64,000 bases of DNA from Thiomonas sp. FB-6. GTDB lineage: Bacteria > Pseudomonadota > Gammaproteobacteria > Burkholderiales > Burkholderiaceae_C. The stretch covers positions 567,084 to 631,083 of the forward strand of contig NZ_KB898471.1 of NCBI RefSeq assembly GCF_000377645.1, in the 5' to 3' direction. Shown one piece after another: positions 13,871-27,958 of the stretch (positions are counted from its first letter, which is position 1; each line of letters starts with the position of its first letter). Position numbers and translations under genes: made by a program. Below the pieces are notes generated by a model that had not been told where the DNA came from, ran no database searches, and saw only the letters and a program-made list of their open reading frames with translations.

Positions 13871-13879
13871 GCGCACCGC

Positions 13880-14770
13880 ATGGAACCCAAGGACATGGAC
13901 CTGCAACCCGAGATCATCGAGGACGTCGCGCGCGAGCTGTACATACGCGCGCTGAAGCTGCTTCCGCCCGACATCAAGCAGGGCTTCGCGCGCCTGGAGT
14001 CCACCGAGACCTCGGCGCGCGCGCAGTCGGTGCTGCGCACCATGGTGACCAACATCGAGGTGGCCGAGCGCACCGACAACCTGCTGTGCCAGGACACCGG
14101 CGTGCCCATCTACAACCTGCGCATCGGCAGCGGACTGCGCTTCGACGGGCACGCGCTGAAGGCCGCGGTGCGCCGCGGCTGCGAGCGCGCCACGCGCGAG
14201 TATCCGCTGCGCTCCTCGGTCGTGCATCCGCTGACCCGGCGCAACGAACACACATCCTGCGGCATCGAGGTGCCGGTGATCCACATCGACTTCATCGACA
14301 CCCCGGGGGTGCTGGAACTGCAGATGATCCCCAAGGGCAGCGGCTCGGAGAACAACTCCTTCCTGAAAATGGCGATCCCCGCCGAGGGCATCGACGCCAT
14401 CAAGACCTTCGTCGTCGACTGTGTGATCGCGGCCGGCGGCAAGACCTGCCCGCCCACCATCGTGGGCGTGGGCATCGGCGGCACTTCCGACCTGTGCGTG
14501 GCGCTGGCCAAGCGGGCGGCCACGCGCGCGCTGGGCACGCGCTGCGCCGACCCCGACGGCGCGGCGCTGGAGCAGCAGCTGTCGCAGGCCGTCAATGCCC
14601 TGGGCGTGGGCCCGCAGGGCCTGGGCGGCGATTCCACCTCCTTCGCCGTGCACATCGAGCTGGCCGCCACCCACATCACGATGAATCCGGTGGCCGTGAA
14701 CATGCAATGCCACTCGGCCCGCCGCGCCAGCGCGCGCCTGAGCGCGGCCGGCGTGCAATGGGGATACTGA
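13880..14770 (+). CDS. class I fumarate hydratase (fumarase/tartrate dehydratase family), alpha subunit
   Basis: This is the 4Fe-4S-binding half of a two-subunit class I hydro-lyase. It interconverts fumarate and malate, or acts on tartrate in close relatives. The 296 residues contain the three cluster cysteines C70 (LLCQDTG), C190 (GGKTCPP) and C277 (NMQCHSARR), plus the GSGSENNS loop. The operon with SDH/FRD subunits favours fumarase over tartrate dehydratase. The ATG at 13880 is used. A second ATG five codons on has AAGGA too close to be a good ribosome site. Confidence 0.9.
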   Translation: MEPKDMDLQPEIIEDVARELYIRALKLLPPDIKQGFARLESTETSARAQSVLRTMVTNIEVAERTDNLLCQDTGVPIYNLRIGSGLRFDGHALKAAVRRGCERATREYPLRSSVVHPLTRRNEHTSCGIEVPVIHIDFIDTPGVLELQMIPKGSGSENNSFLKMAIPAEGIDAIKTFVVDCVIAAGGKTCPPTIVGVGIGGTSDLCVALAKRAATRALGTRCADPDGAALEQQLSQAVNALGVGPQGLGGDSTSFAVHIELAATHITMNPVAVNMQCHSARRASARLSAAGVQWGY

Positions 14771-14775
14771 ACGCC

Positions 14776-15402
14776 ATGGCCCACCACGACATCGCCACTC
14801 CCGCCACCGAAGCCCAGGTGCGCGCGCTGCGCGTGGGCGACACGGTCACGCTGCAGCACACCCTGTTCGGCATCCGCGACGCCACCCAGATCCACATGTT
14901 CGACCGCGGGCGCAGCACGCGCTTCGACCTGCGCGGGCACGCGGTGATCCACACCGCCCCCAACGTGCGCAAGGTTGCGGTGGACTCCGAGCACCCGGCG
15001 GGCTACGCGCCGGTATGCATCGGCACCACCACCTCGGACCGCATGGAGCGCTTCACGCGGCCGTTGATGCAGCAGTACGGCGTGCGCATGATCGTGGGCA
15101 AGGGAGGCCTGCGGGAGGACTCGCTGCGCGCCTTCGGCGAACTCGGCGGTGTCTACCTGGCGATCGTCGGCGGCACGGCGGCGCTGGAGAGCACCTGGAT
15201 CGAACAGATCGAGGACGTCGACCTCGACGACCTCAACCCCGAGTCGCTGTGGAAATTCCGGATCCGCGATTTCGGCCCGCTGCTGGTGGGCATGGACAGC
15301 CACGGCGCCAGCCTGTACGACGACGTGCGCGCCCAGGTGCGCGACCGCCGTGCCGGCGTGCTGGCGGCCCTCGGCGTGGCGGAGGCCGGCCATGCGCGCT
15401 GA
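14776..15402 (+). CDS. class I fumarate hydratase, beta subunit
   Basis: The 208-residue product is the C-terminal half of class I fumarase in its two-gene form. It carries the blocks RDATQIHMFDRG, the CIGTTTSDRME loop and GKGGLREDSLRAF, all typical of the beta domain. With the alpha subunit it forms the active site around the labile 4Fe-4S cluster. The ATG at 14776 is 5 bp after the alpha stop. An in-frame ATG at 14758 would overlap the alpha gene. The end overlaps the flavoprotein gene by 11 bp. Confidence 0.9.
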   Translation: MAHHDIATPATEAQVRALRVGDTVTLQHTLFGIRDATQIHMFDRGRSTRFDLRGHAVIHTAPNVRKVAVDSEHPAGYAPVCIGTTTSDRMERFTRPLMQQYGVRMIVGKGGLREDSLRAFGELGGVYLAIVGGTAALESTWIEQIEDVDLDDLNPESLWKFRIRDFGPLLVGMDSHGASLYDDVRAQVRDRRAGVLAALGVAEAGHAR

Positions 15403-17134
15403 AGCTCCCGGCTTGCGCCGGCTGGACACCGACATCCTGATCCTCGGCTCGGGCGGCGCCGGCCTGTTCGCGGCGCTGCACGCGCACCAGGCGGCGCCCG
15501 GGCTGTCGATCACCGTGGCCGTCAAGGGCCTGCTGGGCAAATGCGGCTGCACCCGCATGGTGCAGGGCGGCTACAACGTGGCGCTGGCCCCCGGCGACTC
15601 GGTGGAGCGCCACTTCATGGACACCATCGAGGGCAGCAAGTGGCTGGCGCGCCAGGACCTGGCGTGGACCCTGGTGACCAAGGCGGTCGAGCGCATCCAC
15701 GAGCTGGAGAACGAGCTCGGCTGCTTTTTCGACCGCAACCCCGACGGCAGCGTGCACCAGAAGGCCTTCGCCGGCCAGACCTTCGACCGCACCGTGCACA
15801 AGGGAGACCTGACCGGCATCGAGATCATCAACCGCCTGGCCGAGCAGGTCTGGGCGCGCGGCATCGGCCGCCTGGAGGAGCACCGCGCGGTGGAGCTGAT
15901 CCCCGCCGCCGACGGCAGCGGCCTCGCCGGGGTGCTGATGATCGACATGCGCAGCGGGGAATTCGTGCTGGTGCGCGCCGGCGCCGTGCTGCTGGCCACC
16001 GGCGGCGGCCCCACCATGTACCGCTTCCACACTCCCTCGGGCGACAAGAGCTGCGACGGCCTGGCCATGGCGCTGCGCGCCGGCCTGCACCTGCGCGACA
16101 TGGAGATGGTGCAGTTCCACCCCACCGGGCTGCTGGCCGGCGAACACACGCGCATGACCGGCACCGTGCTCGAGGAAGGGCTGCGAGGCGCGGGAGGCTG
16201 GCTGCTCAACGGCGCGGGTGAGCGCTTCATGCAGGGCTACGACCCGCGCGGCGAACGCGCCACGCGCGACGTGGTGTCGCGCTCGATCTACGCGGAGATG
16301 CGCGCCGGACGCACGACGCCGTCGGGCGGCGTGTACATCCAGATGTCCCACCTGGGCCCCGACAAGGTGCGCAGCCAGTTCAAGGGCATGGTCGAGCGCT
16401 GCGCCGACTGCGGCTTCGACCTGGCCGGCGGACGGGTGGAGGTGGTTCCGACCGCGCATTACATGATGGGCGGCGTGGAGTTCGAGGCCGATTGCAGCAC
16501 CGCCATGCACGGCCTGTTCGCGGCCGGCGAGGATACCGGCGGGGTACACGGCGCCAACCGCCTGGGGGGCAACGGAGTGGCCAACTCCACCGTGTTCGGC
16601 GGCATCGCCGGCGAGACCATGGCCGCCTGGCTGCAGCGCAACCCGGGGCGGCGCGAACCCGACCTCGACGCCGTGGCACGGGCCGTGGCCGAGCACGAAG
16701 CTCCGCTGCACCAGCCGCCGGCCGACCTGGAGTCCATCCGCGAGCAGCTCCACGCCTGCATGTGGGACGACGTGGGCATCCTGCGCGACGCCGCCGGCCT
16801 GGCGCGCGCCGAGGCGCGCCTGCGCGAGCTGCAGCAGCGTCTGCTGGCCTCCGGCGTGAGCGCGGCCGACCGCGCCTTCAACCTGAGCTGGCACGACTGG
16901 ATGAACCTGCGCAACCTGATCCAGGTCAGCCGCGCCATCACGGCGGCGGCGCTGCAGCGCGAGAACTCGCGCGGCGCCCACTTCCGCGAGGACCATCCCG
17001 AGGCCGGCGATCTGCTGGCCTCGACCTACACGGTAGTGCGTGAAGTCGACGGCGACCCCGTGGTGCGCCACCAGCCGGTGGAGTTCTCCAAGGTGCGACC
17101 CGGCCACAGCCTGCTCGACGAGGCGGCGGCGTGA
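15392..17134 (+). CDS. succinate dehydrogenase/fumarate reductase flavoprotein subunit
   Basis: This 580-residue FAD protein carries the dicarboxylate site. The N-terminal Rossmann motif is LILGSGGAGLFAAL (about residues 16-29). FHPTGLLAGEHTRMTGTV and the FAD-binding HGANRLGGNG follow, with the catalytic arginine region in between. The C-terminal helical domain ends with the usual Trp/Asn-rich segment (NLSWHDWMNLRNL). It lies after the fumarase genes rather than next to the iron-sulfur gene, an unusual order. It starts 11 bp inside the fumarase beta gene, so the whole unit looks translationally coupled. Confidence 0.9.
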   Translation: MRAEAPGLRRLDTDILILGSGGAGLFAALHAHQAAPGLSITVAVKGLLGKCGCTRMVQGGYNVALAPGDSVERHFMDTIEGSKWLARQDLAWTLVTKAVERIHELENELGCFFDRNPDGSVHQKAFAGQTFDRTVHKGDLTGIEIINRLAEQVWARGIGRLEEHRAVELIPAADGSGLAGVLMIDMRSGEFVLVRAGAVLLATGGGPTMYRFHTPSGDKSCDGLAMALRAGLHLRDMEMVQFHPTGLLAGEHTRMTGTVLEEGLRGAGGWLLNGAGERFMQGYDPRGERATRDVVSRSIYAEMRAGRTTPSGGVYIQMSHLGPDKVRSQFKGMVERCADCGFDLAGGRVEVVPTAHYMMGGVEFEADCSTAMHGLFAAGEDTGGVHGANRLGGNGVANSTVFGGIAGETMAAWLQRNPGRREPDLDAVARAVAEHEAPLHQPPADLESIREQLHACMWDDVGILRDAAGLARAEARLRELQQRLLASGVSAADRAFNLSWHDWMNLRNLIQVSRAITAAALQRENSRGAHFREDHPEAGDLLASTYTVVREVDGDPVVRHQPVEFSKVRPGHSLLDEAAA

Positions 17135-17940
17135 ACGAGGGCGCGACCGCGCTCGCCCTGCCCACCGGCGCCCTGCCCGCCGCGCTGAGCGCCGCGCGCA
17201 GCGCCGGCCGGCAACTGCGCGAGGCGCTGGCGCAGCGCGGCAGCTGGCAGGTGCATTCCAAGGGCGCCGGGGACGTGGTCACCGACGTCGACCGCCGCGC
17301 CGAGGCCTGCATCCGTGCCGAGTTGCTGCGGGCCTTCCCGCAGCACGCGGTACTCGGCGAGGAGGGCGGGCTGGACGGCGACGCGGCGGCCGAGTACACC
17401 TGGATCGTCGACCCCATCGACGGCACGATGAACTTCGCCCACGGCTTGCCGCATTTCTGCGTGTCCATCGCGCTGGCGCGCGCGAATGAGCCCGTCTGCG
17501 CGGTGGCCTACGACCCCATGCGCGACGAGATGTTCCACGCCGCGCTGGGCGAAGGCGCCTGGCTGGGAGAGCAGCGGCTGCGGGTGAGCGGCTGCGCGCG
17601 CCTCGAGCAGGCGCTGCTCGCCGCGGTGTTCCCCAAGCCCGACTCGAAGTGGCTGGAGCGCTTCCAGCCCACGCTGCTGCGCGCGCTGCGCGAATGCGCC
17701 GGGCTGCGCCGCAGCGGCTCGATGGTGCTCGACCTGGCCTGGGTCGCCGCGGGGCGGCTGGACGGTTTCTGGCAATGGGGCATGCAGCCCTGGGACATCG
17801 CCGCAGGCAGCCTGCTGGTGCGCGAGGCCGGCGGGCATGTCGCGCCGATCGACCCTGCCGCTTCGCTGTTGCAGGCGCACAGCCTGCTGGCCTGCGCACC
17901 GGAGCTGCGCGAAGCCCTCGCGGCGATGTGCGGGCACTAG
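17131..17940 (+). CDS. inositol monophosphatase family protein
   Basis: This is a 269-residue Mg-dependent sugar or nucleotide phosphatase. It shows VLGEEGG (metal-binding Glu), the signature WIVDPIDGTMNFAHGLPHF and the C-terminal WDIAAGSLLVREAGG. The start is GTG at 17131, overlapping the flavoprotein stop (GTGA), so it is the last gene of the dicarboxylate operon. The substrate could be inositol phosphate, fructose-1,6-bisphosphate or PAP (CysQ-like). Its place after TCA-type genes does not point to one of these. Confidence 0.87.
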   Translation: MNEGATALALPTGALPAALSAARSAGRQLREALAQRGSWQVHSKGAGDVVTDVDRRAEACIRAELLRAFPQHAVLGEEGGLDGDAAAEYTWIVDPIDGTMNFAHGLPHFCVSIALARANEPVCAVAYDPMRDEMFHAALGEGAWLGEQRLRVSGCARLEQALLAAVFPKPDSKWLERFQPTLLRALRECAGLRRSGSMVLDLAWVAAGRLDGFWQWGMQPWDIAAGSLLVREAGGHVAPIDPAASLLQAHSLLACAPELREALAAMCGH

Positions 17941-18494
17941 CCGGGTGTTGACGTAGCAGGAAGTGCCACGCCGGTGCAGCGCCGGACGGAGAACCGGGTG
18001 GCCCCGTACGGCCACCGCAACAGCCAGGCCAGTCCGAGCATCGAAAGGACCACGCCCACGGACGAGAGGGTCCTGTCCAGCCAGCCGTCTTCCGCCGGTT
18101 CGAGGTCCAGGCCGAAGAGCGCCACGGCGAGCGGCAGCATGACCACGGCCATCAGCACCAGGCTGCGCCAGGTCATGCCCCACCACAGCGCCCAGCCGAT
18201 ACCGGCGGCCAGCGGGTGCGGCTCGGGCCCGCCGTCGCGCTCGACGCACAGTTCCACCGCGCCCTCGGGGGAGCGAAAGGGCTTGTGAAACACCCAGCGC
18301 TGAAAAATGAGCACCTGCGCGACCGCCATCAGCGCCATGACTGCGGGTCCCACGAACCGCAACATGGGCCAGCGGGCGGGGGCGAAGGTCAGCGTGAGGC
18401 CGAGCAGCACGAAAACCAGCAGCCCCGCCAGCAGGCTGCGCAACGTCAGGCGCCCCCAGGCCTGGAGTGCGACGAGCAAGATCAGCGTATTCAT
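17937..18494 (-). CDS. hypothetical integral membrane protein
   Basis: The 185-residue product begins at the ATG at 18494 and has about four hydrophobic helices (near residues 2-35, 43-65, 105-130 and 148-170). A polar cytoplasmic-looking stretch lies between helices 2 and 3. I do not recognise a family. It follows the TauE-like gene by 59 bp on the same strand, so it may be the last gene of the sulfolactate unit, and it overlaps the end of the phosphatase gene by 4 bp. Confidence 0.6.
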   Translation of the reverse strand: MNTLILLVALQAWGRLTLRSLLAGLLVFVLLGLTLTFAPARWPMLRFVGPAVMALMAVAQVLIFQRWVFHKPFRSPEGAVELCVERDGGPEPHPLAAGIGWALWWGMTWRSLVLMAVVMLPLAVALFGLDLEPAEDGWLDRTLSSVGVVLSMLGLAWLLRWPYGATRFSVRRCTGVALPATSTPG

Positions 18495-18553
18495 GCGCCA
18501 TTGTGAGCCGCGCTCGATACCTGGGTGACCCGGGGGGACAAGCGCTTCGAGCG

Positions 18554-19303
18554 CTACAGATTGCGCAGCAGCAGGCTGGTACCCGCCGCCAGCAGCACCC
18601 CCCACACCGCCTGCACCACGCGGTGCGCGGGCAGGCGCCGGTTCAGGTGCGTGCCCAGCCACAGCCCCGCGAGCATGCAGGGAAACAGCAGCAGCGCCCG
18701 CGGCAGCACGCTCGGCTGGTGATACAGCCCGGCCGAGGAGAACAGCAGCAGGCGCACCAGCCCGCTGCCGAAGACCAGGGTGCTGATGGTCGCGCGCAAG
18801 GCCTGCGGCTGCTCGATGCGCCGCGCCAGGTAGATCACGTACACCGGCCCGCCGGTGCCGAACATGGCCGTGAACAGGCCGCCGGCGAAGGCCAGGGGCA
18901 TCGCCCAGGCCGCGCGCAGCGGACGCACGGGCGGACGCAGCACCAGGGTCCACAGCGCGTAGGCGAAGATGAAGCCCCCCAGCGCCAGCAGCAGCGTCCT
19001 TTGCGGCGCGTACAGCAGCAGGCTCAGCCCCAGCACCATGCCCGCGGCCATGAACGGGGCCATGCGCCCGATTTCGCGCCACTGCACCTGGCTGCGGTTG
19101 CGCAGCCCCACCAGGATGCCCCCGGTGAGGTCGAACAGCAGCATCATCGGCACCACCTCGCGCAAGGGCAGGAATTGCGTGAGCAGGGGGACCGCGGTGA
19201 TGGACGATCCGAATCCGGTGAGCCCGTAGACCGTGTAGGCGAGCAGGATGACCGCGCCGGCGGCGGCCAGCGCGGCATCGGGCGCCGGCCAGGCGATCAG
19301 CAT
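18554..19303 (-). CDS. TauE/SafE-family exporter, likely sulfite efflux
   Basis: This 249-residue protein has about eight membrane segments and belongs to the TauE/SafE (DUF81) family. The N-terminal repeat carries LTGFGSSITAVPLL and the second repeat GGLFTAMFGTGGPVYVIYL, the paired glycine-rich motifs of the family. It is downstream of comC by 16 bp. Members next to sulfonate-degrading genes are proposed to export sulfite, and this one follows SuyAB, which releases sulfite from sulfolactate. The role is inferred from context. ATG at 19303 chosen because the longer reading would run into comC. Confidence 0.85.
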   Translation of the reverse strand: MLIAWPAPDAALAAAGAVILLAYTVYGLTGFGSSITAVPLLTQFLPLREVVPMMLLFDLTGGILVGLRNRSQVQWREIGRMAPFMAAGMVLGLSLLLYAPQRTLLLALGGFIFAYALWTLVLRPPVRPLRAAWAMPLAFAGGLFTAMFGTGGPVYVIYLARRIEQPQALRATISTLVFGSGLVRLLLFSSAGLYHQPSVLPRALLLFPCMLAGLWLGTHLNRRLPAHRVVQAVWGVLLAAGTSLLLRNL

Positions 19304-19319
19304 CGCCGGCGGGCGCGCG

Positions 19320-20330
19320 TCATGCGCCGGTCCCGGCGAGTTCGCGCAGCTGGCGCTCCAGCGCATCCGGCACGTTCAGGCCGTCGCGCTGCGCGCGGGC
19401 GGCCAGGTCGAAGCGGCGCCGGCCCGGCAGGCGCACGCCCTCGTCCGCGCACATCGCAGCCAGCAGGGTCTCGATGCGCTCGTGGAACACGTCGGCTCCC
19501 GCCAGCGCTCCGGGGTCGATGGCCAGGAAGGCCTGGCCGATGCGCGGCCGGTTGCCCTCGTCGACGAAAAAGGAATCGGCCTCGAAACCGAAGGAAGCCC
19601 CGGTCAGCGCGCAGCACAGCAGCTCGACGATCAGCGCGAGCATGGCGCCCTTGACGCCTCCCGCCGGCAGCATCGAGCCTTCCAGCCCGGCCTGCGGGTC
19701 GGTGGTCGGCCGGCCCTCGCGGTCCACCGCCCAACCCAGCGGAATGCTGCGCCCCTCCTTGGCCGCCACCATCAGCTTGCCGCGCGCCACCTCCGACAGC
19801 GACAGGTCGATGACCAGCGGCTGGGCGTCGCGACGCGGAAATACCGCGGCGATGGGATTGGTCCCGAACAGCGCGCGCTTGCCCCCCCAGGCCGGCATGG
19901 CTGCGGGCGAATTGCCGAAACCCAGGCCCACCATGCCGGCCTCGGCCAGGGGCATCAGGTGGTGCGCGGCGGCCCCGAAGTGATGGCTGCGGGTCACCGC
20001 GGCGAAGGCGCTGCCGCACTCCAGGGCCCGGCGCCGCGCCTCGCCCACCGCCAGCTCGCAGGCGGGGAAGGCCAGCCCGTCGTCGGCGTCGACCAGGCAG
20101 GCCGCCGCGCGGGCGTGGATGACCCGTGCCTGCGCGGCCCCGTTGACCCGCCCCAGGCGCAGATGGGCGGCGTACTGGGGCACGCGCGACAGGCCGTGCG
20201 AGGCCAGGCCCTGCGCCTCGGCGGCGACCAGCGCCTGCGCGGTCGACTGCGCCATCGCGGCGCCGGCACCGGCGCCGCGCAAGGCGGCCGCGGCGAGTTC
20301 GGTGGCTTGGGAAAGACTCAGGACGGACAT
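19320..20330 (-). CDS. comC: (R)-sulfolactate dehydrogenase ComC (malate/lactate dehydrogenase type II family)
   Basis: This 336-residue NAD(P)H-dependent oxidoreductase of the Ldh2/ComC family shows QGLASHGLSRVPQYA (catalytic His), VTRSHHFGAAAHHL, GTNPIAAVFPRR and PAGGVKGAMLALIVELL. Family members reduce 2-oxoacids such as pyruvate, 2-oxoglutarate or sulfopyruvate. Next to slcC and suyAB the likely reaction is sulfopyruvate to (R)-sulfolactate, as in Chromohalobacter. The ATG at 20330 is preferred over one 48 bp upstream that gives an atypical N-terminus. By itself the sequence would only say malate/lactate dehydrogenase family. Confidence 0.82.
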   Translation of the reverse strand: MSVLSLSQATELAAAALRGAGAGAAMAQSTAQALVAAEAQGLASHGLSRVPQYAAHLRLGRVNGAAQARVIHARAAACLVDADDGLAFPACELAVGEARRRALECGSAFAAVTRSHHFGAAAHHLMPLAEAGMVGLGFGNSPAAMPAWGGKRALFGTNPIAAVFPRRDAQPLVIDLSLSEVARGKLMVAAKEGRSIPLGWAVDREGRPTTDPQAGLEGSMLPAGGVKGAMLALIVELLCCALTGASFGFEADSFFVDEGNRPRIGQAFLAIDPGALAGADVFHERIETLLAAMCADEGVRLPGRRRFDLAARAQRDGLNVPDALERQLRELAGTGA

Positions 20331-20390
20331 GGAAGGAAGGCCAGGAAATCGAGGGGAATCGAGGAAAGGCTCGGGCATTTCCGACGCGGC

Positions 20391-21320
20391 TCAGCCGCGC
20401 AGGAAGGCCCCCACCTGTTCGGCAATCAGGCTGCTCACGCGCAGGTTGGACTCGCGCGTGAGCCCGGCGATGTGCGGGGTCAGCAGCAGCCTGGGCACGC
20501 CGGCCAGCGCCGAGCCGGCGGGCAGCGGCTCGTGCTCGAACACATCCAGCGCGGCGCCGCCGAGCCGCCCCGCGCGCAGCGCGTCGGCCAGCGCGGCCTC
20601 GTCGACCACGCCACCGCGCGCGGTGTTGATCAGCACCGCGCCCTCGCGCATGCGCGCCAGGCGCGGCGCGTCCAGCAGGCCGCGGGTGGACTCGGTCAGG
20701 GGTACGTGCAGGCTGAGCACGTCGCATTCCCGCAGCAGCGCATCCAGCTCCCGGCGCTGCACGCCGGTTTCGCGCCACACCGGCGCGTGCGCCGCCACCA
20801 CGGGGTCGTAGGCCAGCACCTGCATGCCCAGCGCCTGCCCCAGCCGGGCGGTGCGCCGGCCGATGTCGCCGAAGCCGAGCAGCCCCAGGGTCTTGCCGCC
20901 GATTTCGCGCCCCTCGGACAAGGCCGGACGCGGCCAGGCCCCGCCGGCCACCTGCGCGCTGCTCGCGTAGGCCCCGCGCAGCAGCAGCATGGCGGTGGCG
21001 ATCACGTATTCGGCCACGGCCTGCGCGTTGGCCCCCAGCGCCGGGATCACGCGGATGCCGCGCCGCGCGCACAAGTCCATGTCGATGTTGTCCAGGCCCA
21101 CGCCCAGGCGCCCCACCACCCGCAGCCCGGGCGCATGGTCCAGCAGCTCGGCGCGTACCTGGGTGCGGTTGCGCACGATCAGCGCCTGCGCGCCGGCCAG
21201 CGCCTGGCGCAGCGCCGGGGCGTCGTCCACCAGCCCGGGTTCGTAGCGCAGGTCGAACCGGGCCCGCAGGTCCTCTACCGCCTGCGCATCCATGAATTCG
21301 CTGATGACGATGCTGCTCAC
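20391..21320 (-). CDS. slcC: (S)-sulfolactate dehydrogenase SlcC (D-2-hydroxyacid dehydrogenase family)
   Basis: This 309-residue NAD-dependent 2-hydroxyacid dehydrogenase has the nucleotide fold GLLGFGDIGRRTARLGQALG and the catalytic triad Arg (NTARGG), Glu (DVFEHEPLP) and His (TPHIAG). The start is GTG at 21320, overlapping the permease stop (GTGA). In the suy context the expected job is oxidation of (S)-sulfolactate to sulfopyruvate, which ComC then reduces to the (R)-form that SuyAB can cleave. Phosphoglycerate dehydrogenase is unlikely because there is no ACT domain. Confidence 0.83.
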   Translation of the reverse strand: MSSIVISEFMDAQAVEDLRARFDLRYEPGLVDDAPALRQALAGAQALIVRNRTQVRAELLDHAPGLRVVGRLGVGLDNIDMDLCARRGIRVIPALGANAQAVAEYVIATAMLLLRGAYASSAQVAGGAWPRPALSEGREIGGKTLGLLGFGDIGRRTARLGQALGMQVLAYDPVVAAHAPVWRETGVQRRELDALLRECDVLSLHVPLTESTRGLLDAPRLARMREGAVLINTARGGVVDEAALADALRAGRLGGAALDVFEHEPLPAGSALAGVPRLLLTPHIAGLTRESNLRVSSLIAEQVGAFLRG

Positions 21321-22177
21321 GCCTGCATCCCCCACTTGCGAACGGTGTGGCGCTCGATGGTGTGGAAGATCAGGTTCTCCACGATCAGCCCGATGATGAT
21401 GATGGTGAGCAGCCCGGCGAATACCTTCGAGATCTCCAGCAGATTCTTGCTTTCGTAGATGTACCAGCCCAGGCCGCCGGAACCCGAGCTGACCCCGAAC
21501 ACCAGCTCGGAGGCGATCAGGGTGCGCCAGGCGAAGGCCCAGCCCACCTTGAGCCCGGTGAGGATGCTGGGGAAGGCCGCGGGAATGAGGATCTTGCCGA
21601 TGTACGGCAGGCCGCGCAGTCCGTAGTTGCGCCCGACCATGCGCATGGTGTTGGACACCGCCATGAAACCCGACTGGGTGTTCAGCGACACCGCCCACAC
21701 CACCGAGTGCACCAGCACGAACACCAGGCTGCCGTCGCCCAGCCCGAACCAGATCAGCGCGATGGGCAGCAGCGCGATGGCCGGCAGCGGGTTGAACATG
21801 GCCGTCAGGGTCTCCAGCAGGTCGGCGCCCACGCGCGTGGCCACACCGAAGCCGGTGAGCACGGCGGCCAGCGCCACCCCCACGCCGTAGCCCAGCAGCA
21901 GCACCTTCAGCGACACCCAGATCTTGCCCAGCAACTCGCCGCTCCACAACCCGCGCACCAGCTCCACCACGGTGGAGGAGAAGGTCGGCAGCAGCAGGTC
22001 GTTGTGCAGGGCGCGCGCGCCGATCTCCCAGGCCAGCGCGAGCAGCACGATGATCACGGTCTTGCGCAGCGCCACGCTGTTGAAACAGGTCTCCAGGCGC
22101 GACAGGGGCTTTTCCACCACGCCGAACTGGCTGGAATCGGTGGGTTCCCGATGGATCTCGGGACGCTGCAGGTTCAT
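21317..22177 (-). CDS. sulfonate-type ABC transporter permease
   Basis: The 286-residue inner-membrane protein has about six helices and resembles SsuC/TauC permeases. The cytoplasmic loop (MRMVGRNYGLRGLPYIGKIL, then IPAAFPSILTGLKVGWAFAW) holds the coupling-helix signature for the ATPase. The ATG at 22177 is chosen because GAGGGA lies about 9 nt upstream. The alternative at 22195 overlaps the ATPase gene. With the neighbouring ATPase and binding protein it should import a sulfonate, most likely sulfolactate. Confidence 0.88.
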   Translation of the reverse strand: MNLQRPEIHREPTDSSQFGVVEKPLSRLETCFNSVALRKTVIIVLLALAWEIGARALHNDLLLPTFSSTVVELVRGLWSGELLGKIWVSLKVLLLGYGVGVALAAVLTGFGVATRVGADLLETLTAMFNPLPAIALLPIALIWFGLGDGSLVFVLVHSVVWAVSLNTQSGFMAVSNTMRMVGRNYGLRGLPYIGKILIPAAFPSILTGLKVGWAFAWRTLIASELVFGVSSGSGGLGWYIYESKNLLEISKVFAGLLTIIIIGLIVENLIFHTIERHTVRKWGMQA

Positions 22178-22187
22178 GCTCGTTCCC

Positions 22188-23003
22188 TCAGCCATGCTGG
22201 CCCTCCTGGTGCAGGCTCTCGCCCTCGAACAGCAAGTGGTTGATGCGCGCCTCGAGCGCCTCGGCGGCGGCGCGGTCATGGTGCCCGCGCGGCAGGCCCT
22301 CGAGCTCGGCGCGGACCTGGCCCGGATGCGGGGACAGCAGCAGGATGCGGTTGCCCAGCTTGATCGCCTCGGGGATCGAGTGGGTCACGAAAATCACCGT
22401 GAATCGCGTGTCGTCCCACAGCTGCAGCAGTTCGTCCTGCATCTTGCGCCGCGTCAGCGCGTCCAGCGCCGCGTAGGGCTCGTCCATCAGCAGCACGTCC
22501 GGCTCCATGGCCATGCCGCGCGCGATGGCCACGCGCTGCTTCATGCCTCCGGACAGCATGTGGGGATGGTGGTCGGCGAACTTGGTCAGGCCGACCTTGT
22601 CCAGGTAGTACATCGCCTTGGCCGCGGCCTCGGCGCCGCGCACCTTGCCGGAGGACACCAGCGGGAACATCACGTTGCCCTTCACGGTCTTCCAGGGCAG
22701 CAGCTGGTCGAATTCCTGGAACACCATCATGCGGTCGCTGCCCGGCTTGCTCACCCGCCGGTCCTTCAGCCGGATCTCGCCCTCGGTGGGGGTGAGGAAG
22801 CCGCCGATGGCCTTGAGCAGCGTGGACTTGCCGCAGCCCGAGGGGCCGAGCAGGATGTAGCGGTCGGAGCGGCACACCTGGAAGTCCACCCGGTAGGTGG
22901 CGGTGACCAGGTGGTCCGTCGTCTTGTATTGCAGGGTCACGCCGCGCACGTCCACCAGGACCTGCGCGGCAGCTTCGGATTGCGGGACACTCACAGCGTT
23001 CAT
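22188..23003 (-). CDS. sulfonate-type ABC transporter ATP-binding protein
   Basis: The 271-residue ATPase has Walker A GPSGCGKST, a Q-loop in VFQEFDQLLPWKTV, the ABC signature LSGGMKQRVAIARG, Walker B VLLMDEP and the switch VTHSIPEA. The pattern matches the SsuB/TauB group. It lies between the binding-protein gene (86 bp upstream) and the permease gene (10 bp downstream). It powers uptake through the partner permease. Confidence 0.92.
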   Translation of the reverse strand: MNAVSVPQSEAAAQVLVDVRGVTLQYKTTDHLVTATYRVDFQVCRSDRYILLGPSGCGKSTLLKAIGGFLTPTEGEIRLKDRRVSKPGSDRMMVFQEFDQLLPWKTVKGNVMFPLVSSGKVRGAEAAAKAMYYLDKVGLTKFADHHPHMLSGGMKQRVAIARGMAMEPDVLLMDEPYAALDALTRRKMQDELLQLWDDTRFTVIFVTHSIPEAIKLGNRILLLSPHPGQVRAELEGLPRGHHDRAAAEALEARINHLLFEGESLHQEGQHG

Positions 23004-23089
23004 CGTCACCACGCGAGTCGTTGGGACGCCGGCGCTCGCCGGCCCAAGGGCCGCGGCGATCCCTGCCGCGGCCCGCCTGCCAGGACGGC

Positions 23090-24094
23090 TCAGCTGCCGG
23101 CCAGCTTGTCCACGTTGGGGAAGAACAGTTCCTTCCACGACTTCGGCAGCACCTTGATGGTGCCCACCTCGTGCATGAAGCGCACGTACTTCATCACGTG
23201 CTGCGGCGTGGTGGTGTAGACCAGTTGCGGATCGTCGAGCATCTTCAGGATGAAGTCGACCGAGTCCTTCTTGTCGTGGGTGTCCTTCAGGTACTGCTCG
23301 GCGGCGGCCTTCTTGTCGTGGTTGATCTCCTCGATCGCCTGGTCCAGCGCGGCGACGAAGGCCGCGTACACCTTCGGGTTGTCCTTGTAGAACTTGCTCG
23401 TGGTCCACACCAGGTTGAAGCTGGCCGGGCCGCCGAGCACGTCATAGGAGTTCAGCACCGTGTGCACGCCCGGCATCTGCAGTTCCTGGTACTCGAAGGG
23501 CGGAGCGCCGAAGTGCGCCGTGATGGCATGCGAGGCCAGCGCGGCCATCGCGTCGGGGTGGCTCATGGTCACGGTCAGCGGGTCCAGCTTGTGCTCCTGG
23601 CCGGGGCCGAAGGCCTTTTCCGCCGCCATCTGCAGGGTCACCGCCTGGATCGACACCTTCACCGCCGGCAGCCCGATCCTGTCCTTCGAGGTGAAGTCCT
23701 TGATGGTCTTGACGTCGGGGTTGTCGGTGTTCAGGAGCAGCGGCATGGCGTTCAGCGCCGCCACCCCCTTGATGCCGTAGTTTTCCCGCGTGCGCGCCCA
23801 GGCGATGACCATCGGCGCCACGCCTCCGGAGGCGAACTGCAGGCTGCCCGAAAGCAGCGCCTCGTTCATGACGTTGCCGCCGGCGAACTTGATCCATTCG
23901 ACCTTCAGGTCCTTGACCCCGAGGGCGGCGGCCTGTTTCTCGATCAGGTGGTGGTCCTGCATGATCATCAGCGGCAGATAGCTGATGCCGTATTCGCGCG
24001 CCACCGCGATCTTGCTCACTTCGGCGTGCGCGGCAGCAGCCGCGCCCAGGCTCAGGCCGGCGCACAGGGCGGCGGCGATCAGGCGATGCTTCAT
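23090..24094 (-). CDS. sulfonate-type ABC transporter substrate-binding protein
   Basis: The 334-residue periplasmic protein has a Sec signal peptide (MKHRLIAAALCAGLSLGAAAAAHA, cleavage near residue 24). A NitT/TauT-type binding fold follows (KIAVAREYGISYLPLMIMQD, AGGNVMNEALLSGSLQFASG). GAGGAG stands 6 nt before the ATG. It follows suyB by 131 bp. The ligand is inferred to be sulfolactate or a related short sulfonate. A nitrate or hydroxymethylpyrimidine ligand is less likely given the neighbours. Confidence 0.88.
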   Translation of the reverse strand: MKHRLIAAALCAGLSLGAAAAAHAEVSKIAVAREYGISYLPLMIMQDHHLIEKQAAALGVKDLKVEWIKFAGGNVMNEALLSGSLQFASGGVAPMVIAWARTRENYGIKGVAALNAMPLLLNTDNPDVKTIKDFTSKDRIGLPAVKVSIQAVTLQMAAEKAFGPGQEHKLDPLTVTMSHPDAMAALASHAITAHFGAPPFEYQELQMPGVHTVLNSYDVLGGPASFNLVWTTSKFYKDNPKVYAAFVAALDQAIEEINHDKKAAAEQYLKDTHDKKDSVDFILKMLDDPQLVYTTTPQHVMKYVRFMHEVGTIKVLPKSWKELFFPNVDKLAGS

Positions 24095-24225
24095 GTTGTC
24101 TCCTCATCCGTGAAAGGCGAAGATAGGGACGGCGTGGTCGCCGCCTCCTGGTACATGCCGGGCCGTTTCGCCGGCGGCCCCCGCGCCGGCCCACGGGGGC
24201 CGGCGCAACGCAATCATGGCGCCGA

Positions 24226-25401
24226 TCAGGCGCTTTCGTACAGCCGGGTCAACACGAATTCGCGGTGGCCCAGAGCCTCGGCCGAACTCAGGCGGCCGTT
24301 GGCGGTGCGCAGCATGCTTTCCAGCAGCTTGTCGCCGGCCTGGTCCAGGTTGATCTCGCGCTGCAGCAGCCCGCTGACGTCCACGTCGATGTGCTCGCTC
24401 ATCAGGCGCACGGTACGCGGGTTGGCACAGATCTTGATCACCGGCAGGATCGGGTTGCCGATCACGTTGCCCTGCCCGGTCGGGAAGAAGTGCACCACGT
24501 AGCCCGAGGCCGCGCACAGCGTGACCATCTCGGCCGCGGCGGAGGAGGAATCCATGAACCACAGGCCAGGGTGGGTGGGCGCCTCCGCCTTGTCCAGCAC
24601 GCCGTCGACCACGCACTTCTTGCCGATCTTCTGGATGTTGCCCAGCGCCTTTTCCTCGATGGTGGTCAGGCCCCCGGCGATGTTGCCCTTGGTCGGCTGG
24701 CTCTCCGACAGGTCGGTGGTCTTGTGCCGGTTGATCATGTCCTGGTAACGGTTGAACATGAACATGAAGCGTTCGCGCACCGCGTCGTTGGCGCAGCGCG
24801 CCGCCACGATGCTCTCGCCGCCGGTGATCTCGGAGGTCTCGCCGAACACCAGCGTGCTGCCCAGGCCGTAGAGCTTGTCGAAGGCGTTGCCCACGCTGGG
24901 GTTGGAGCCGCAGCCCGAGGTGGTGTCGCTCTCGCCGCACTTGGTCGACACCCACAGCTCGTGGATCGGGCAGGCCTCGCGCTGCTTCTCGCTGGCCCAC
25001 TGCACGAATTCCTTGGCCGCCTTGCTGGCGCGCTGGATGGTGTCGTGGTCGCCGTGGCCCTCGATGCCGAAACCCACCACCGGCTTGCCGGTGGCCTGGA
25101 TGCCCTGGACCACCTTCTGGGTCCAGCCGTCCTCGATGCCGATCACCACCACCGCCGCGACGTTGGGGTTGCAGCCGGTGCCGATGAGGGTGCGGAAGTG
25201 CAGTTCGAGGTCCTCGCCGAATTGCAGCCGCCCGTAGGGGTGCGGGATGGCCAGCGCGCCCTTGATGTTGTGGGCCACGGCCTCGGCCGCCGCGTTGGAC
25301 AGGTCGTCCAGCGGCAGGATGATGACGTGATTGCGTACCCCGACGCGGCCGTTCTCGCGGCGATAGCCGAGGAAAGTGGTGTCTTTGGAAATGACGGACA
25401 T
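24226..25401 (-). CDS. suyB: (2R)-sulfolactate sulfo-lyase large subunit SuyB
   Basis: SuyB with SuyA cleaves (R)-sulfolactate to pyruvate and sulfite. It belongs to the UxaA/altronate dehydratase family and is often misnamed for that reason. The 391 residues begin [20 protein letters not shown], continue with [20 protein letters not shown] and contain the Cys/Gly-rich [17 protein letters not shown], all close to the SuyB sequences I recall. GGAGAC lies 7 nt before the ATG. It is 34 bp after suyA. Neighbouring slcC, comC and tauE-like genes support sulfolactate over altronate or galactarate. Confidence 0.88.
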
Positions 25402-25435
25402 GGAAGGTCTCCGGGACGTTTGCGAAGCAGGCGGC

Positions 25436-25717
25436 TTACCAGCGCTTGGTCTTGATGTTCTGCACGTGGGCGTGCTCGCCGGCGCGGATCGGCGCGACCA
25501 CCTTGCCGATGTCCACCGCGTATTTCCAGACCGTGTCGCCGGGCGCCATGTCCTTGAGCGCGACCTTGTGGCCGATCGGGATGTCCTGAACGGCCTTCAC
25601 GCTGGTCATGCGATCCTCGTCCATGATCCAGCCACTGAGTTCCATGCCCGCCTTGACGCCCTCGACGACGACGACGGCCACGGAATCCTTTGCATCGTGC
25701 AGCACGAAGTGAATCAT
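25436..25717 (-). CDS. suyA: (2R)-sulfolactate sulfo-lyase small subunit SuyA
   Basis: The 93-residue product is a SAF-domain subunit, matching the N-terminal part of altronate dehydratases. [20 protein letters not shown] and [17 protein letters not shown] are characteristic. In SuyAB it completes the active site. GGAGGA lies 6 nt before the ATG at 25717. It is the first gene of the leftward suy/slc operon, downstream of the palindrome at 25796-25816. Confidence 0.88.
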
Positions 25718-25795
25718 TTTTGTCCTCCGGGTGGGATCAACCGCGGCGTGCTCGTGCCGATCCGCGGTCGTCAGGTCGCAGCATAGGCATCCAGA

Positions 25796-25816
25796 TCATC
25801 TAGGTCAACTAGATGA
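25796..25816. promoter_or_regulatory. palindromic operator candidate between suyA and its GntR gene
   Basis: TCATCTAG (25796-25803) and CTAGATGA (25809-25816) form perfect 8-bp arms around a 5-bp spacer. The site lies between the divergent suyA (start 25717) and GntR (start 25925) genes. HutC-type GntR dimers bind palindromes of this size, so it probably lets the regulator control both promoters. Inference from symmetry and position. Confidence 0.6.
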
Positions 25817-25924
25817 CATGGATGACTTCCCGGGTAGAATGCGAAGCATGGATTTCGGGACGCCCGCTCGGGCCCCCGGCGCTGTGCCACCCCTTCGCGA
25901 GCTGCCTGCCTCCTTCTGCCCGTC

Positions 25925-26677
25925 ATGAGCGACACCCTCTCCGCTGGTCAGGCCCTCGGCAACCACCTGTACAAGGAGGTCAAGCACAAGATGCTCGAGT
26001 CGCTGCGCACCGGCGAGTGGAAGCCCGGGGAGGTGATCCCCTCCGAGAAGAAGCTCGGCGAACGCTTCGCCGTGAGCATCGGCACGGTGCGCAAGGCGGT
26101 CGACGAGCTCAGCGCCGAGAACGTGCTGATCCGCCAGCAGGGGCGCGGAACCTTCGTCGCCTCGCACGGGCGCGGGAAGTACTTCTTTTCCTTTTTCCAC
26201 ATCGTGCGCCAGGACGGGCTGCGCGAATTTCCCAGCGTGGAGCTCATCGATTTCACGCGCGCCCAGGCCGACGCGCCCACCGCGGCCGCGCTGGAAATCG
26301 ACCCCGGCGACAAGGTGTGGCGCTATACCAATCGGCTGAGTCTGCAGGACCACGCGGTGATCCTGGACGAGATCACCGTGCCGGTGGAGCTGTTCCCGCG
26401 CCTGAGCGAACGCGTGCTGCGCGAACGCCGAAGCACGGTCTACCAGCTATACCAGGAACACGCGGGGGTCAACGTGATCCACACCCGCGAACGCGTGCGC
26501 GCGACCAAGGCGGACGCGGCCCGCGCACGCCTGCTGCAGGTATCCCCGGGGCACCCGCTGCTGCTGCTCGTGCGCATCGCGCGCTCCTTCAAGGAGCGCG
26601 CCGTGGAACTGCGCCACTCCTACGTCAACACCGACCGCCACGAATACGCGGTCGACCTGCTGGGCGACGGCGGCTAG
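25925..26677 (+). CDS. suyR: GntR/UTRA-family regulator of sulfolactate genes (SuyR-like)
   Basis: The 250-residue regulator has an N-terminal GntR winged helix (about residues 15-80, PGEVIPSEKKLGERFAVSIG then TVRKAVDEL) and a UTRA effector domain (about 100-240). It is divergent from suyA, as suyR is in other sulfolactate clusters. By family it should be a repressor released by sulfolactate or a pathway intermediate. It ends 21 bp before the convergent TauD-like gene. Confidence 0.83.
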   Translation: MSDTLSAGQALGNHLYKEVKHKMLESLRTGEWKPGEVIPSEKKLGERFAVSIGTVRKAVDELSAENVLIRQQGRGTFVASHGRGKYFFSFFHIVRQDGLREFPSVELIDFTRAQADAPTAAALEIDPGDKVWRYTNRLSLQDHAVILDEITVPVELFPRLSERVLRERRSTVYQLYQEHAGVNVIHTRERVRATKADAARARLLQVSPGHPLLLLVRIARSFKERAVELRHSYVNTDRHEYAVDLLGDGG

Positions 26678-26697: not shown

Positions 26698-27645
26698 CTA
26701 GCGTCCGGGCGGACGCAGCGCGCGCTCGGCGCTGAACATGCCCGGCGCCGGGCTGCCGGCGAAATTGCCCAGCGCAATCAGCGACTGGCGCCAGTACACG
26801 CGCAAGGCTCGCCATGCCCCCTGGGGGGCGCGCCAGGCATGCAGCACGCGGTGGTTGCGCAGGAACAGCACGTCGCCGGGCTGCAGCTGCAGCCACACCG
26901 CACGGCGGCGCGCGGCCGCGTCGATCTCCTGCAGCACCCGCAGGGCCGCGGCGTCGCCGGCACGCGCGGGACGCGTGCCGGCGAGATCCACGGCGGCCAG
27001 CACCCCGTCGTCCAGCTTGCGCACCAGGCTGCGCGCCTCGCTGCTGAGCGCGCAGGACGGCCCCAGCGACGCGCCCACGTCGTGGCAAAAGCGCTCCTGT
27101 TGCGCGCACTCGCGCAATGCCGGAGGCAGCGCGTCGAACAGTTCAGCAGCGTCGACCACGCCGACGCCGCCGCGCACGCGGTTCGCGCAACAGCTCAGCG
27201 ACACGAGTTCCGGCTGGAAGGCCGGACGAAACGCGGCCAGCTCCGTGTGGAAGCTGCCCTCTCCCGCGCCCTGCGCGCCGGCCCCCGCGCGGCCTCCAGG
27301 CTCCACCGGCTGGAACACCCCCGGGCCCTGCTCGAGCAGGCCGTAGGCCTGGCCGGCGCCCAGCCAGTGCGCGGCCACGCTGGTCAGCACGCAACGATGG
27401 AACTCCAGGGCCGGCCAGGCGTCCGGATCGAAGCGCACCAGGCAGGCGCGCTGCGCGAGTTCGGGACGCGGCGCCACCGCCAGTTCGCGGACCGCCTCGC
27501 GCGCGGCCTGCTGCACGGCGCGCAGCGGCACCGGATGCGCGGCCAGCGCTTGCGGTGCGACACGCGCGGCGTCCAGGGCGCGACGCAGCAATTCGGCACC
27601 CACTTCCAACGTGGGAACGCTCAACGAGCAGGACACGGAAGACAT
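26698..27645 (-). CDS. TauD/TfdA- or clavaminate-synthase-like Fe(II)/2-oxoglutarate oxygenase
   Basis: The 315-residue product looks like a non-haem iron oxygenase of the TauD/CAS group. GSFHTELAAF gives the first His with Glu as carboxylate ligand (HxE, as in clavaminate synthase, in place of HxD). VLFLRNHRVLHAWRAP gives the distal His and the cosubstrate-binding Arg region. The ATG at 27645 has GAGG about 6 nt upstream. It is convergent with suyR. The substrate is unknown. Its place beside a sulfonate cluster suggests, but does not show, a sulfonate or amino-acid substrate. Confidence 0.7.
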   Translation of the reverse strand: MSSVSCSLSVPTLEVGAELLRRALDAARVAPQALAAHPVPLRAVQQAAREAVRELAVAPRPELAQRACLVRFDPDAWPALEFHRCVLTSVAAHWLGAGQAYGLLEQGPGVFQPVEPGGRAGAGAQGAGEGSFHTELAAFRPAFQPELVSLSCCANRVRGGVGVVDAAELFDALPPALRECAQQERFCHDVGASLGPSCALSSEARSLVRKLDDGVLAAVDLAGTRPARAGDAAALRVLQEIDAAARRRAVWLQLQPGDVLFLRNHRVLHAWRAPQGAWRALRVYWRQSLIALGNFAGSPAPGMFSAERALRPPGR

Positions 27646-27958
27646 CGCCACCTCGGGACCGGATCAGGGAAAAAGAGCAATATTCGCACTCCCAACCAAC
27701 CATTTTCAAAAAATGGTAATACAGCCCATTCGGCAAAACCTGTTAATCGCCCATGATTCTCGATCGCTTCGCAGCCACTCGTGTGAATCGAAGCACTGCC
27801 CGGCCCTGCATTTGCTCGCACCAGAAGGTCGGAAGCCCTGGTCAACAAAGGACTTTTCCAAGAATTTCGGAAATTTCCGAGGATTCCACAATAACTCTCG
27901 GGTCAAGGTTTTCTACTAAGCTGCAAATCCTGACGACCGGGCCCATGCGAGACTTCCG
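27646..27958. other. AT-richer intergenic region with palindromes
   Basis: No gene is supported here. The region is clearly richer in A+T than its flanks. It contains a CCATTTT/AAAATGG inverted repeat (about 27700-27716) and a perfect 14-bp palindrome TCGGAAATTTCCGA (27867-27880). It separates two divergent genes, so it probably carries both promoters. I cannot assign specific -35/-10 boxes with confidence. Confidence 0.45.

Follow-up and report, generated by a model that had tools for sequence, protein, structure and literature searches.

The window, by which the whole stretch of 64,000 nucleotides of Thiomonas sp. FB-6 DNA is meant, was found to contain a sulfolactate operon on the minus strand, met head-on by a module of succinate dehydrogenase (SDH)-like and class I fumarase-like genes on the plus strand. 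The region from 11.3 to 26.7 kb is read here, with a probability of roughly two in three, as a C3-sulfonate catabolic island whose two convergent arms would serve for the use of sulfolactate and of 3-sulfopropanoate. The sulfolactate operon and its divergent regulator were found to contain the following genes, including those of an ATP-binding cassette (ABC) importer.

25436 to 25717, minus strand: suyA, predicted small subunit of (R)-sulfolactate sulfo-lyase, 93 aa, adjoining suyB
24226 to 25401, minus strand: suyB, predicted large subunit of (R)-sulfolactate sulfo-lyase, 391 aa, with GD_AH domains (PF20629, 287.6 bits; PF04295, 120 bits)
23090 to 24094, minus strand: substrate-binding protein of the ABC importer, 334 aa, with the Pfam domains NMT1 and NMT1_2 over the cut-off
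22188 to 23003, minus strand: ATPase of the ABC importer, 271 aa, TauB/NtrCD-like, under the equivalog cut-offs
21317 to 22177, minus strand: permease of the ABC importer, 286 aa, PF00528, SaoP/NtrB/SsuC-like, under the cut-offs
20391 to 21320, minus strand: slcC, candidate (S)-sulfolactate dehydrogenase, 309 aa, a D-2-hydroxyacid dehydrogenase (2-Hacid_dh, 2-Hacid_dh_C)
19320 to 20378, minus strand: comC, candidate (R)-sulfolactate dehydrogenase, 352 aa, Ldh_2 family (PF02615, 328.6 bits)
18554 to 19303, minus strand: tauE/safE-family exporter, sulfite candidate (PF01925, 110.2 bits against a cut-off of 32.6; start picked by eye)
25925 to 26677, plus strand: GntR-UTRA regulator, divergent from suyA, 250 aa (PF00392, PF07702)

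The suyA gene was found 34 bases upstream of suyB and encodes the small subunit separately; its product shares 71% identity with SuyA of the hps-suy locus of Cupriavidus pinatubonensis. A search of a plasmid collection with SuyB matched 316 records, 13 of them at 63-85% identity and the next at 39.8%. The top match was found in C. pinatubonensis HN-2 (84.7% identity), where the gene comes after hpsN, hpsO, a major facilitator superfamily (MFS) gene and a dehydrogenase gene, which is the hpsRNOUPsuyAB arrangement as given for this species in a passage of PMC11382572. The UxaA-type domain PF04295 was matched once in the genome (4.20 Mb, 79 contigs, 99.7% complete), with no second family member. 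For a maximum-likelihood tree of SuyB, 33 rows were taken from 131 segments after near-copies of at least 84% identity (18 chosen loci excepted) and own copies had been dropped. The window was placed within a 24-row clade (support 100/100) together with rows from Cupriavidus, Paracoccus, Methylobacterium and Rhodococcus; E. coli UxaA, GarD and other UxaA-like rows fell outside it. An earlier sequence-only reading had called the pair SuyAB rather than an altronate dehydratase and had named a firm grouping with altronate or galactarate dehydratases as the outcome that would speak against it; the pair groups with the Suy rows instead. We firmly assign it to SuyAB, for which Fe2+-dependent cleavage of (R)-sulfolactate is predicted. 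The same reading had expected automatic labels to hide the pathway, and the annotation of the suy genes indeed reads 'UxaA family hydrolase'.

The slcC product carries 2-hydroxyacid dehydrogenase domains within a suy cluster, its top PDB match being the phosphoglycerate dehydrogenase 1wwk, and its activity is predicted from sequence only. The comC product matched PDB entry 2x06 at 165.8 bits and 1wtj at a higher 190.6 bits, and its candidate name relies on gene context. All the genes of the operon were found where the earlier reading had put them, suyAB, the ABC genes, slcC, comC and tauE on one strand and gntR opposite. The order SuyA-SuyB-ABC-SlcC-ComC-TauE recurs in loci L008, L012 of Thiomonas delicata and L075 and is therefore not due to chance. 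The operon is real; its kind of pathway is already known and its importer is less common. The bounds once drawn for it, 17937-26677, hold for the operon itself, but the lower one takes in a doubtful open reading frame (ORF) and leaves out the convergent SDH/fumarase-like module. This ORF (17937-18494, minus strand) would encode a membrane-like protein and may not be a gene. It gave no Pfam match, a longer frame over it gave no Pfam or NCBIfam match, and no relative was found among the loci examined from other genomes; in the closest relative, L008, the matches to TauE and to the inositol-monophosphatase-family protein meet, seemingly leaving it no room.

The module (12385-17134, plus strand) converges on this operon in the tight order SdhB, SdhC, SdhD, fumarase alpha, fumarase beta, SdhA. 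It was found to contain the following genes, followed by the presence of one further gene on the same strand.

12385 to 13119, plus strand: SdhB-like iron-sulfur subunit (TIGR00384, 183.5 bits, over the cut-off of 88)
13116 to 13496, plus strand: SdhC-like membrane subunit (PF01127, 34.8 bits)
13487 to 13870, plus strand: SdhD-like membrane subunit (PF01127, 46.3 bits)
13880 to 14770, plus strand: alpha subunit of a class I fumarase-type hydratase, candidate sulfoacrylate hydratase (PF05681)
14758 to 15402, plus strand: beta subunit of the class I fumarase/TtdB-type hydratase (TIGR00723, 136 bits, under the cut-off of 145.15)
15392 to 17134, plus strand: SdhA-like flavoprotein, candidate 3-sulfopropanoate dehydrogenase, in a clade of its own and with Thr replaced by Glu
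17131 to 17940, plus strand: inositol-monophosphatase-family gene overlapping the SdhA stop codon (best NCBIfam match inositol-1-monophosphatase, under the cut-off)

The linkage of the module to SuyB was examined in one draw of 399 genomes of the organism's order, which was searched for both proteins without selecting by SuyB. The module SdhA was found in 51 genomes (all at least 70% identity, both module types described below being counted) and SuyB in 72, and 50 of the 51 SdhA genomes also contained SuyB; the Fisher p of 5.7e-45, and that of 3.5e-23 by genus (25/25 versus 32/159), are descriptive, the genomes not being independent. In 39 of the 50 pairs the two genes lie within 15 kb, and L167 and L168 have the genes of the module and of the ABC importer interspersed among those of suy. 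The single SdhA genome without SuyB (G211) has a ComC gene adjoining the module (L249). Within this order the SDH/fumarase-like arm is tied almost exclusively to the sulfolactate lyase.

The module SdhA was found to differ from the housekeeping enzymes. A tree was built from 29 chosen module SdhAs together with four further sequences. The 29 grouped with one another at 100/100 support, and the rows of E. coli SdhA, of FrdA and of the genome's own SdhA and NadB-like proteins lay outside this clade. The other SdhA relatives of the genome share 27-37% identity with it; a separate SdhA copy (35%) groups with E. coli SdhA, and another class I fumarase is also encoded. The distinct clade and these separate copies argue that the module is not the housekeeping SDH and fumarase. 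The window SdhA scored under the cut-offs of the SDH and fumarate reductase (FRD) models (TIGR01812, 432.5 of 567.3 bits; TIGR01816, 330.1 of 727.35), and its best NCBIfam match, the fumarate reductase model TfrA, also fell short (503.4 of 718). The His and Arg residues of the substrate site were retained in 54/54 SdhA rows. The Thr of the TEGxRGEGG motif (T254 position), which we take to contact the substrate carboxylate, is present in both E. coli proteins, SdhA and FrdA, and in the own SdhA of the genome, whereas it was replaced by Glu in 52/52 module SdhAs. In place of the RGEGG of E. coli SdhA and FrdA, the module SdhAs have RG[A/S/V]GG. Compared with these two and with the own copy, all 29 carry six additional residues before the Glu, among them a conserved Arg/Lys; a NadB-like row has a shorter insertion with Lys. 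Residue numbers for fumarate reductase did not turn up in a literature search.

In the hydratase, the motifs CQDTG, CPP and C-x-R were found in 43/43 type I alpha segments, and in the beta segments a TTSxR-type motif and GKGG in 48/48 and an MDSHG-type motif in 45/48, counts that take in overlapping loci. With these motifs taken as marks of class I fumarases, type I, which has three Fe-S cysteines and the catalytic motifs, belongs to the class I fumarase/TtdAB family.

Two types of the module were found, with L023 and L061 untyped among 43 loci. Type I, that of the window, has the order SdhBCD-FumAB-SdhA and accompanies SuyB. Type II has the order SdhBCD-SdhA-FumAB, its alpha and beta subunits showing 33-37% and 26-30% identity, respectively, to those of the window (36% and 27% in the Pseudomonas sp. 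MPC6 representative), and type I is nested inside type II in the SdhA tree. Five aligned type II hydratases were found without CQDTG, TTSxR and MDSHG, the cysteines being retained and C[G/A]DTG and TASFR present; the type II motif class (28 alpha and 19 beta segments at 20-45% identity) may include other fumarase relatives. Among the 18 type II loci examined, 12 contained a TauE, SorA, SuyZ or SuyB relative in the stretch, the TauE and SorA calls in module loci going down to about 30% identity, and three contained a CoA-acylating semialdehyde dehydrogenase. A hand tally of type I and II against the presence of SuyB ([[22,1],[6,6]], p 0.003) is biased, many type I loci having been fetched for holding SuyB, and the draw of 399 genomes is the unbiased test.

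The conjugative plasmid of Pseudomonas sp. MPC6 was found to contain together a tripartite tricarboxylate transporter (TTT), TauE, a porin, the type II module, a CoA-acylating methylmalonate-semialdehyde dehydrogenase (TIGR01722, 695.3 against 448.5 bits), SuyZ, a sulfite oxidase and a cytochrome c; suyAB was not found in the plasmid stretch examined, the chromosome lying outside the comparison. On a plasmid of strain NT-25 the module precedes a SuyZ-type exporter, TauE, a tripartite ATP-independent periplasmic (TRAP) transporter, a gene annotated as sulfolactaldehyde 3-reductase (324.3 bits, slightly under the cut-off of 348) and gabD, a set of genes that reads as a route from 3-hydroxypropanesulfonate to 3-sulfopropanoate and into the module. 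On the plasmids examined the module is annotated as succinate dehydrogenase, FAD-binding protein or fumarate reductase, and as fumarate hydratase.

The ABC importer was compared with the transporters of other suy loci. Of 582 relatives the best 80 were kept; 24 of these, with less than 5 kb on one side, were dropped and the other 56 used. ComC-like genes were found in 51/56, SlcC-like genes in 39/56, both in 39/56 and GntR in 47/56. Within 9 kb, 26 loci contained a TTT-type binding protein alone, six a dicarboxylate symporter (DAACS), four an Hps-type ABC system and three the window's ABC type alone; three combined the latter with DAACS, two combined it with TTT, one had TTT with an Hps-type ABC system, and no transporter was detected in 11. 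The TTT calls come from a binding-protein query with matches as low as about 26% identity, and orphan Bug proteins may be among them. The ABC type of the window recurs, though in a minority of loci (8/56), being found in Thiomonas, Paralcaligenes, Candidimonas, three Paraburkholderia and two metagenome-assembled genome (MAG) loci, the Candidimonas locus (L062) having ABC genes without a matched binding protein; in a ninth locus, L014, the ABC genes lie slightly past 9 kb. No TctA/B/C-type (SlcHFG) genes are present in the window operon, and the ABC genes take that slot, as the sequence-only reading had described; in many relatives it is filled by a TTT-type binding protein.

The position of the importer between suyB and slcC argues for sulfolactate as its substrate. 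However, the same importer family adjoins SDH-like modules away from suyAB, in L241 (SuyB on another contig) and L263 (SuyB more than 20 kb off), and this placement beside type II modules argues for a substrate upstream of sulfolactate. Since the importer adjoins a module where suyAB is not adjacent, 3-sulfopropanoate fits it at least as well as sulfolactate. In a tree of the binding protein, 17/18 module- or suy-linked rows fell outside a weakly supported fork of 29 rows (91/75), which was found to contain 28/29 other rows together with L108, a linked row, whereas L130, not linked, was outside; rows L102, L103, L104 and L108 of this tree are the suy loci L167, L168, L169 and L174. More distant relatives of the binding protein (about 47-50%) were seen beside acyl-CoA carboxylase-type genes in L170, L172, L173 and L178 (by ORF reading, and by Pfam in L172). 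The importer family at large probably has substrates besides sulfonates, and binding-protein homology alone, given such neighbours, is no proof of a sulfonate substrate.

In the proposed sulfolactate arm, SlcC would oxidise (S)-sulfolactate to sulfopyruvate, ComC would convert sulfopyruvate to (R)-sulfolactate, and SuyAB would cleave the latter to pyruvate and sulfite. The sulfite would pass to the periplasm through TauE and be oxidised there by a SorAB-type enzyme encoded elsewhere. In the other arm, the SdhABCD-like membrane complex would convert 3-sulfopropanoate to 3-sulfoacrylate with electrons passing to quinone, and the class I fumarase-like hydratase would convert 3-sulfoacrylate to 3-sulfolactate, which would enter the SuyAB arm. 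The ABC importer would take up 3-sulfopropanoate, sulfolactate or both. By analogy, 3-sulfopropanoate may be regarded as the sulfonate isostere of succinate, with sulfoacrylate resembling fumarate and sulfolactate malate, and its desaturation would call for a quinone-linked enzyme. Because these substrates mirror succinate, fumarate and malate, an SDH-like and fumarase-like pair feeding SuyAB would be chemically direct.

Other parts of the genome complement the two arms. About 51 kb past the end of the window, relatives of HpsN (78%), HpsO and HpsP were found together with genes for an MFS protein and a LacI regulator; the MFS gene matches a Rhodococcus MFS protein (42%) and not HpsU. A SorA orthologue (413.6 bits to 2BLF) is encoded elsewhere with a small CxxCH protein alongside, which is SorB-like by eye and gave no Pfam match, and a SuyZ-family exporter (PF03601) is also present, SorA and the exporter lying on other contigs than the window. 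With these genes encoded elsewhere, 2,3-dihydroxypropane-1-sulfonate (DHPS) can probably feed sulfolactate from inside, and the organism can probably oxidise sulfite. The sequence-only reading had proposed uptake of sulfolactate, and export of sulfite in place of its oxidation by a local gene. The latter holds for the operon but not genome-wide, where the SorA orthologue and the SuyZ-family exporter are found; as to the former, import is not required where the hpsNOP relatives can make sulfolactate inside, and the substrate of the ABC system may be either sulfolactate or 3-sulfopropanoate.

Several results weigh against the assignment of the region to a two-armed island. The ComC product scored 201.5 bits with NF040650 (L-sulfolactate dehydrogenase), its best of five families, against a cut-off of 500. 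The binding protein was under both NCBIfam cut-offs (TIGR01728, 62.8 of 163.5 bits; TIGR01729, 23.3 of 304.25), so that the earlier label 'SsuABC/TauABC-like' stands for the permease and the ATPase and not for this distant SsuA relative. An AlphaFold model of the binding protein from eight sequences was poor (pLDDT 55) and was discarded. The Thr to Glu replacement in SdhA would add a negative charge near an anionic substrate and is not obviously suited to a sulfonate. The alpha subunit of the hydratase scored over the NCBI fumarate hydratase cut-off (296.5 against 276). Among the 50 genome pairs, nine had SdhA and SuyB on different contigs, one had them 18.5 kb apart and one 1.9 Mb apart. In a draw of 393 genomes of the phylum, SdhA was found in 11, SuyB in 15 and both in five, and the six module genomes without SuyB (6/11) were all type II with different hydratase subunits. 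Finally, 22 of the 72 SuyB genomes in the order were without the module, so sulfolactate use needs no module.

This last count, together with the sufficiency of SuyAB, SlcC, ComC and TauE for racemic sulfolactate, would suit an operon (18.5-26.7 kb) that is a self-contained sulfolactate pathway with an ABC importer for sulfolactate, the SDH/fumarase-like genes being unrelated neighbours or spare tricarboxylic acid (TCA) cycle enzymes. We regard this as unlikely in view of the co-occurrence in 50/51 genomes with 39 pairs within 15 kb, the interleaving in L167 and L168, the distinct SdhA clade with an altered substrate site and the separate SDH and fumarase copies of the genome. The module could also act on a carbon dicarboxylate such as methylsuccinate (mesaconate, citramalate) or tartrate within a linked, sulfonate-free pathway. 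The chemistry would be the same, the beta subunit is nearest to TtdB and fumarase models, and the alpha subunit passes the fumarate hydratase cut-off. It would, however, leave unexplained both the near-exclusive suyAB linkage in the order and the type II loci L264 and L266, which contain TauE, SuyZ and SorA-type genes without suyAB in the stretch, and it is accordingly held to be quite improbable.

SDH and FRD are reversible enzymes, and the module could run from sulfolactate through sulfoacrylate to 3-sulfopropanoate as an electron sink in the manner of fumarate reductase, which would agree with TfrA as the best model match of SdhA. The sulfite-oxidase-type genes of the window genome and of two named plasmids that carry the module stand against it, and type II loci with uptake systems and without suyAB fit the oxidation of an imported substrate; the reverse direction appears very improbable. 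That the UxaA-like pair is an altronate/galactarate-type dehydratase, with which it has the PF04295/PF20629 domains in common, is contradicted by the SuyB tree, by the 84.7% identity to SuyB of a DHPS cluster and by the sulfonate neighbours, and can hardly be credited. The two-armed C3-sulfonate island is the reading preferred here.

Two further regulatory features were found.

25804 to 25817, minus strand: candidate operator GTCATCTAGTTGAC between suyA and gntR, one base off TCATNNNNATGA
11330 to 12256, minus strand: LysR-type regulator, divergent from the module (PF00126, PF03466)

The palindrome TCATNNNNATGA was found in 52 of 84 suyA-gntR gaps, whereas 200 first-order Markov simulations gave 0.3 on average and 2 at most; the 84 gaps are 90 rows minus six duplicate locus copies, some of the remaining rows being near-copies. 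GntR would govern the sulfolactate arm through this palindrome before suyA. The window does not contain TCATNNNNATGA in its exact form. With a widened pattern the window site is the sole zero-mismatch site of the genome, but the widening to A/T at one base was made after inspection of the window and L012, and this uniqueness is not independent; a loose operator search within the 64 kb window gave no excess (3 matches, 2.84 expected). Relatives of the LysR regulator (49-68%) were found near the module in L060, L064, L070, L079, L082, L250, L251, L252 and L255.

The inositol-monophosphatase-family gene has a 72% copy in L008, and relatives at 34-47% were seen near GntR or ComC in several suy loci. 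Next to the GntR gene lies a TauD/TfdA-family protein (26698-27651, minus strand; PF02668, 40.8 bits), which among the loci of other genomes was matched only in the closest MAG loci, L007 and L008 (86%). Further along, the plus strand contains at 52900-57035 a family-3 binding protein, a permease and an ATPase followed by a sulfatase-family enzyme, possibly a second system for sulfur or phosphonate esters, and at 37634-38346 a FitAB-like pair of a ribbon-helix-helix antitoxin and a PIN-domain toxin, within a stretch of weaker third-position GC (36-42 kb) that is perhaps an island. Elsewhere, L169 (G338:C20:44000-56357) was found to contain two different UxaA/Suy-like pairs, at 39% and 63% identity to SuyB of the window, along with two binding proteins, an ATPase, a permease and genes resembling comC and slcC; it may represent a related 2-hydroxyacid lyase system. 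Plasmid 3 of Variovorax sp. PBL-E5 (L089) contains a UxaA-like pair at 38% to SuyB, outside the Suy clade, in the layout of suy clusters with GntR, a hydroxyacid dehydrogenase, a TTT binding protein and an Ldh-family gene.

Among known systems, the SlcC/ComC/SuyAB sulfolactate cluster of Chromohalobacter salexigens was reportedly described by Denger and Cook in 2010. It resembles the window in suyAB, slcC, comC and in import plus sulfite release. Its import is ascribed in a passage of PMC5812351 to the TTT system SlcHFG, whereas the window has an ABC importer, a GntR-UTRA regulator and an adjoining SDH/fumarase-like arm. The hpsRNOUPsuyAB locus of C. pinatubonensis is similar in SuyA (71%) and SuyB (85%), and the window genome also contains relatives of hpsNOP, accompanied by MFS and LacI genes; but there hps and suy form one cluster with an MFS carrier, whereas here suy is joined to slcC-comC and the ABC genes, and hps lies about 51 kb beyond. 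In Desulfovibrio sp. DF1, also a SuyAB organism, an ABC importer is likewise proposed for a C3 sulfonate, by the description in PMC6278857 of a candidate DHPS transporter; according to a figure legend there, it is encoded with the DHPS genes on another contig than suyAB.

Plasmid pTAV3 of Paracoccus versutus (L005, L263) contains suyAB, slcC, comC, hpsNOP, TauE, ABC genes and SdhBCD-SdhA-Fum-Fum within about 40 kb, but its module is of type II and another ABC importer adjoins suyAB. Two ABC systems, a TTT, SuyZ-type exporters and a sulfite oxidase gene were also seen in this region. With E. coli SdhA and FrdA the module SdhA shares the fold family, FAD and iron-sulfur subunits, two membrane anchors and the substrate-site His/Arg, and differs from them in its own clade, the Thr to Glu and RGEGG to RG[A/S/V]GG changes and the Arg/Lys insertion.

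As for 3-sulfopropanoate itself, a passage of PMC11489063 gives degradation of 3-sulfopropionate as unreported before, except for a thesis on Roseovarius nubinhibens that proposed sulfoacrylate and then sulfolactate as intermediates. These are the intermediates proposed here for the window, and the cited passage gives no genes. The same paper has Bilophila wadsworthia respire 3-sulfopropanoate by a route described there as unknown, and names as sources Enterococcus gilvus, from sulfoquinovose or DHPS, and Cupriavidus necator, from homotaurine. In Paracoccus wurundjeri grown on sulfofucose, nine proteins of 'fumarate and tartrate metabolism' rose according to a passage of PMC12421959, and their cluster also holds a TauE homologue; the likeness to the module is by description. 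A search of open-licence papers turned up no gene assignment for 3-sulfopropanoate degradation.

A wider and tentative reading, which we consider possible though doubtful, is that bacteria run, on sulfonates, a counterpart of the TCA cycle steps from succinate through fumarate to malate. A quinone-linked SDH paralogue with Thr to Glu and the Arg/Lys insertion would desaturate 3-sulfopropanoate to sulfoacrylate; type I, its fumarase motifs intact, would then hydrate C2 to give sulfolactate for SuyAB, and type II, whose contact residues are altered, would hydrate C3 to give 3-hydroxy-3-sulfopropanoate, which would fall apart into sulfite and malonate semialdehyde. As a part of the same reading, 3-hydroxy-3-sulfopropanoate would be the bisulfite adduct of malonate semialdehyde, the latter being taken on by the CoA-acylating semialdehyde dehydrogenase. 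The regiochemistry of type II is speculation and concerns the relatives, not the window.

What is new here is the island as a whole with its SDH/fumarase-like arm, which by homology and gene linkage would probably lead from 3-sulfopropanoate to sulfolactate. A concrete, testable set of candidate genes for 3-sulfopropanoate degradation can now be named from the window and its relatives; it occurs in 51 of 399 genomes of one order. If the assignment is true, an SDH-family complex and a class I fumarase would have been retuned to a sulfonate, and a sequence marker for metagenomes would be at hand. An ABC candidate would also be added for the uptake of sulfolactate or 3-sulfopropanoate, an ABC system being already a candidate for DHPS in strain DF1 as described in PMC6278857. 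Hydration at C3, if true, would explain the type II loci that contain sulfite export and oxidation genes without SuyAB, one on a conjugative Pseudomonas plasmid included.

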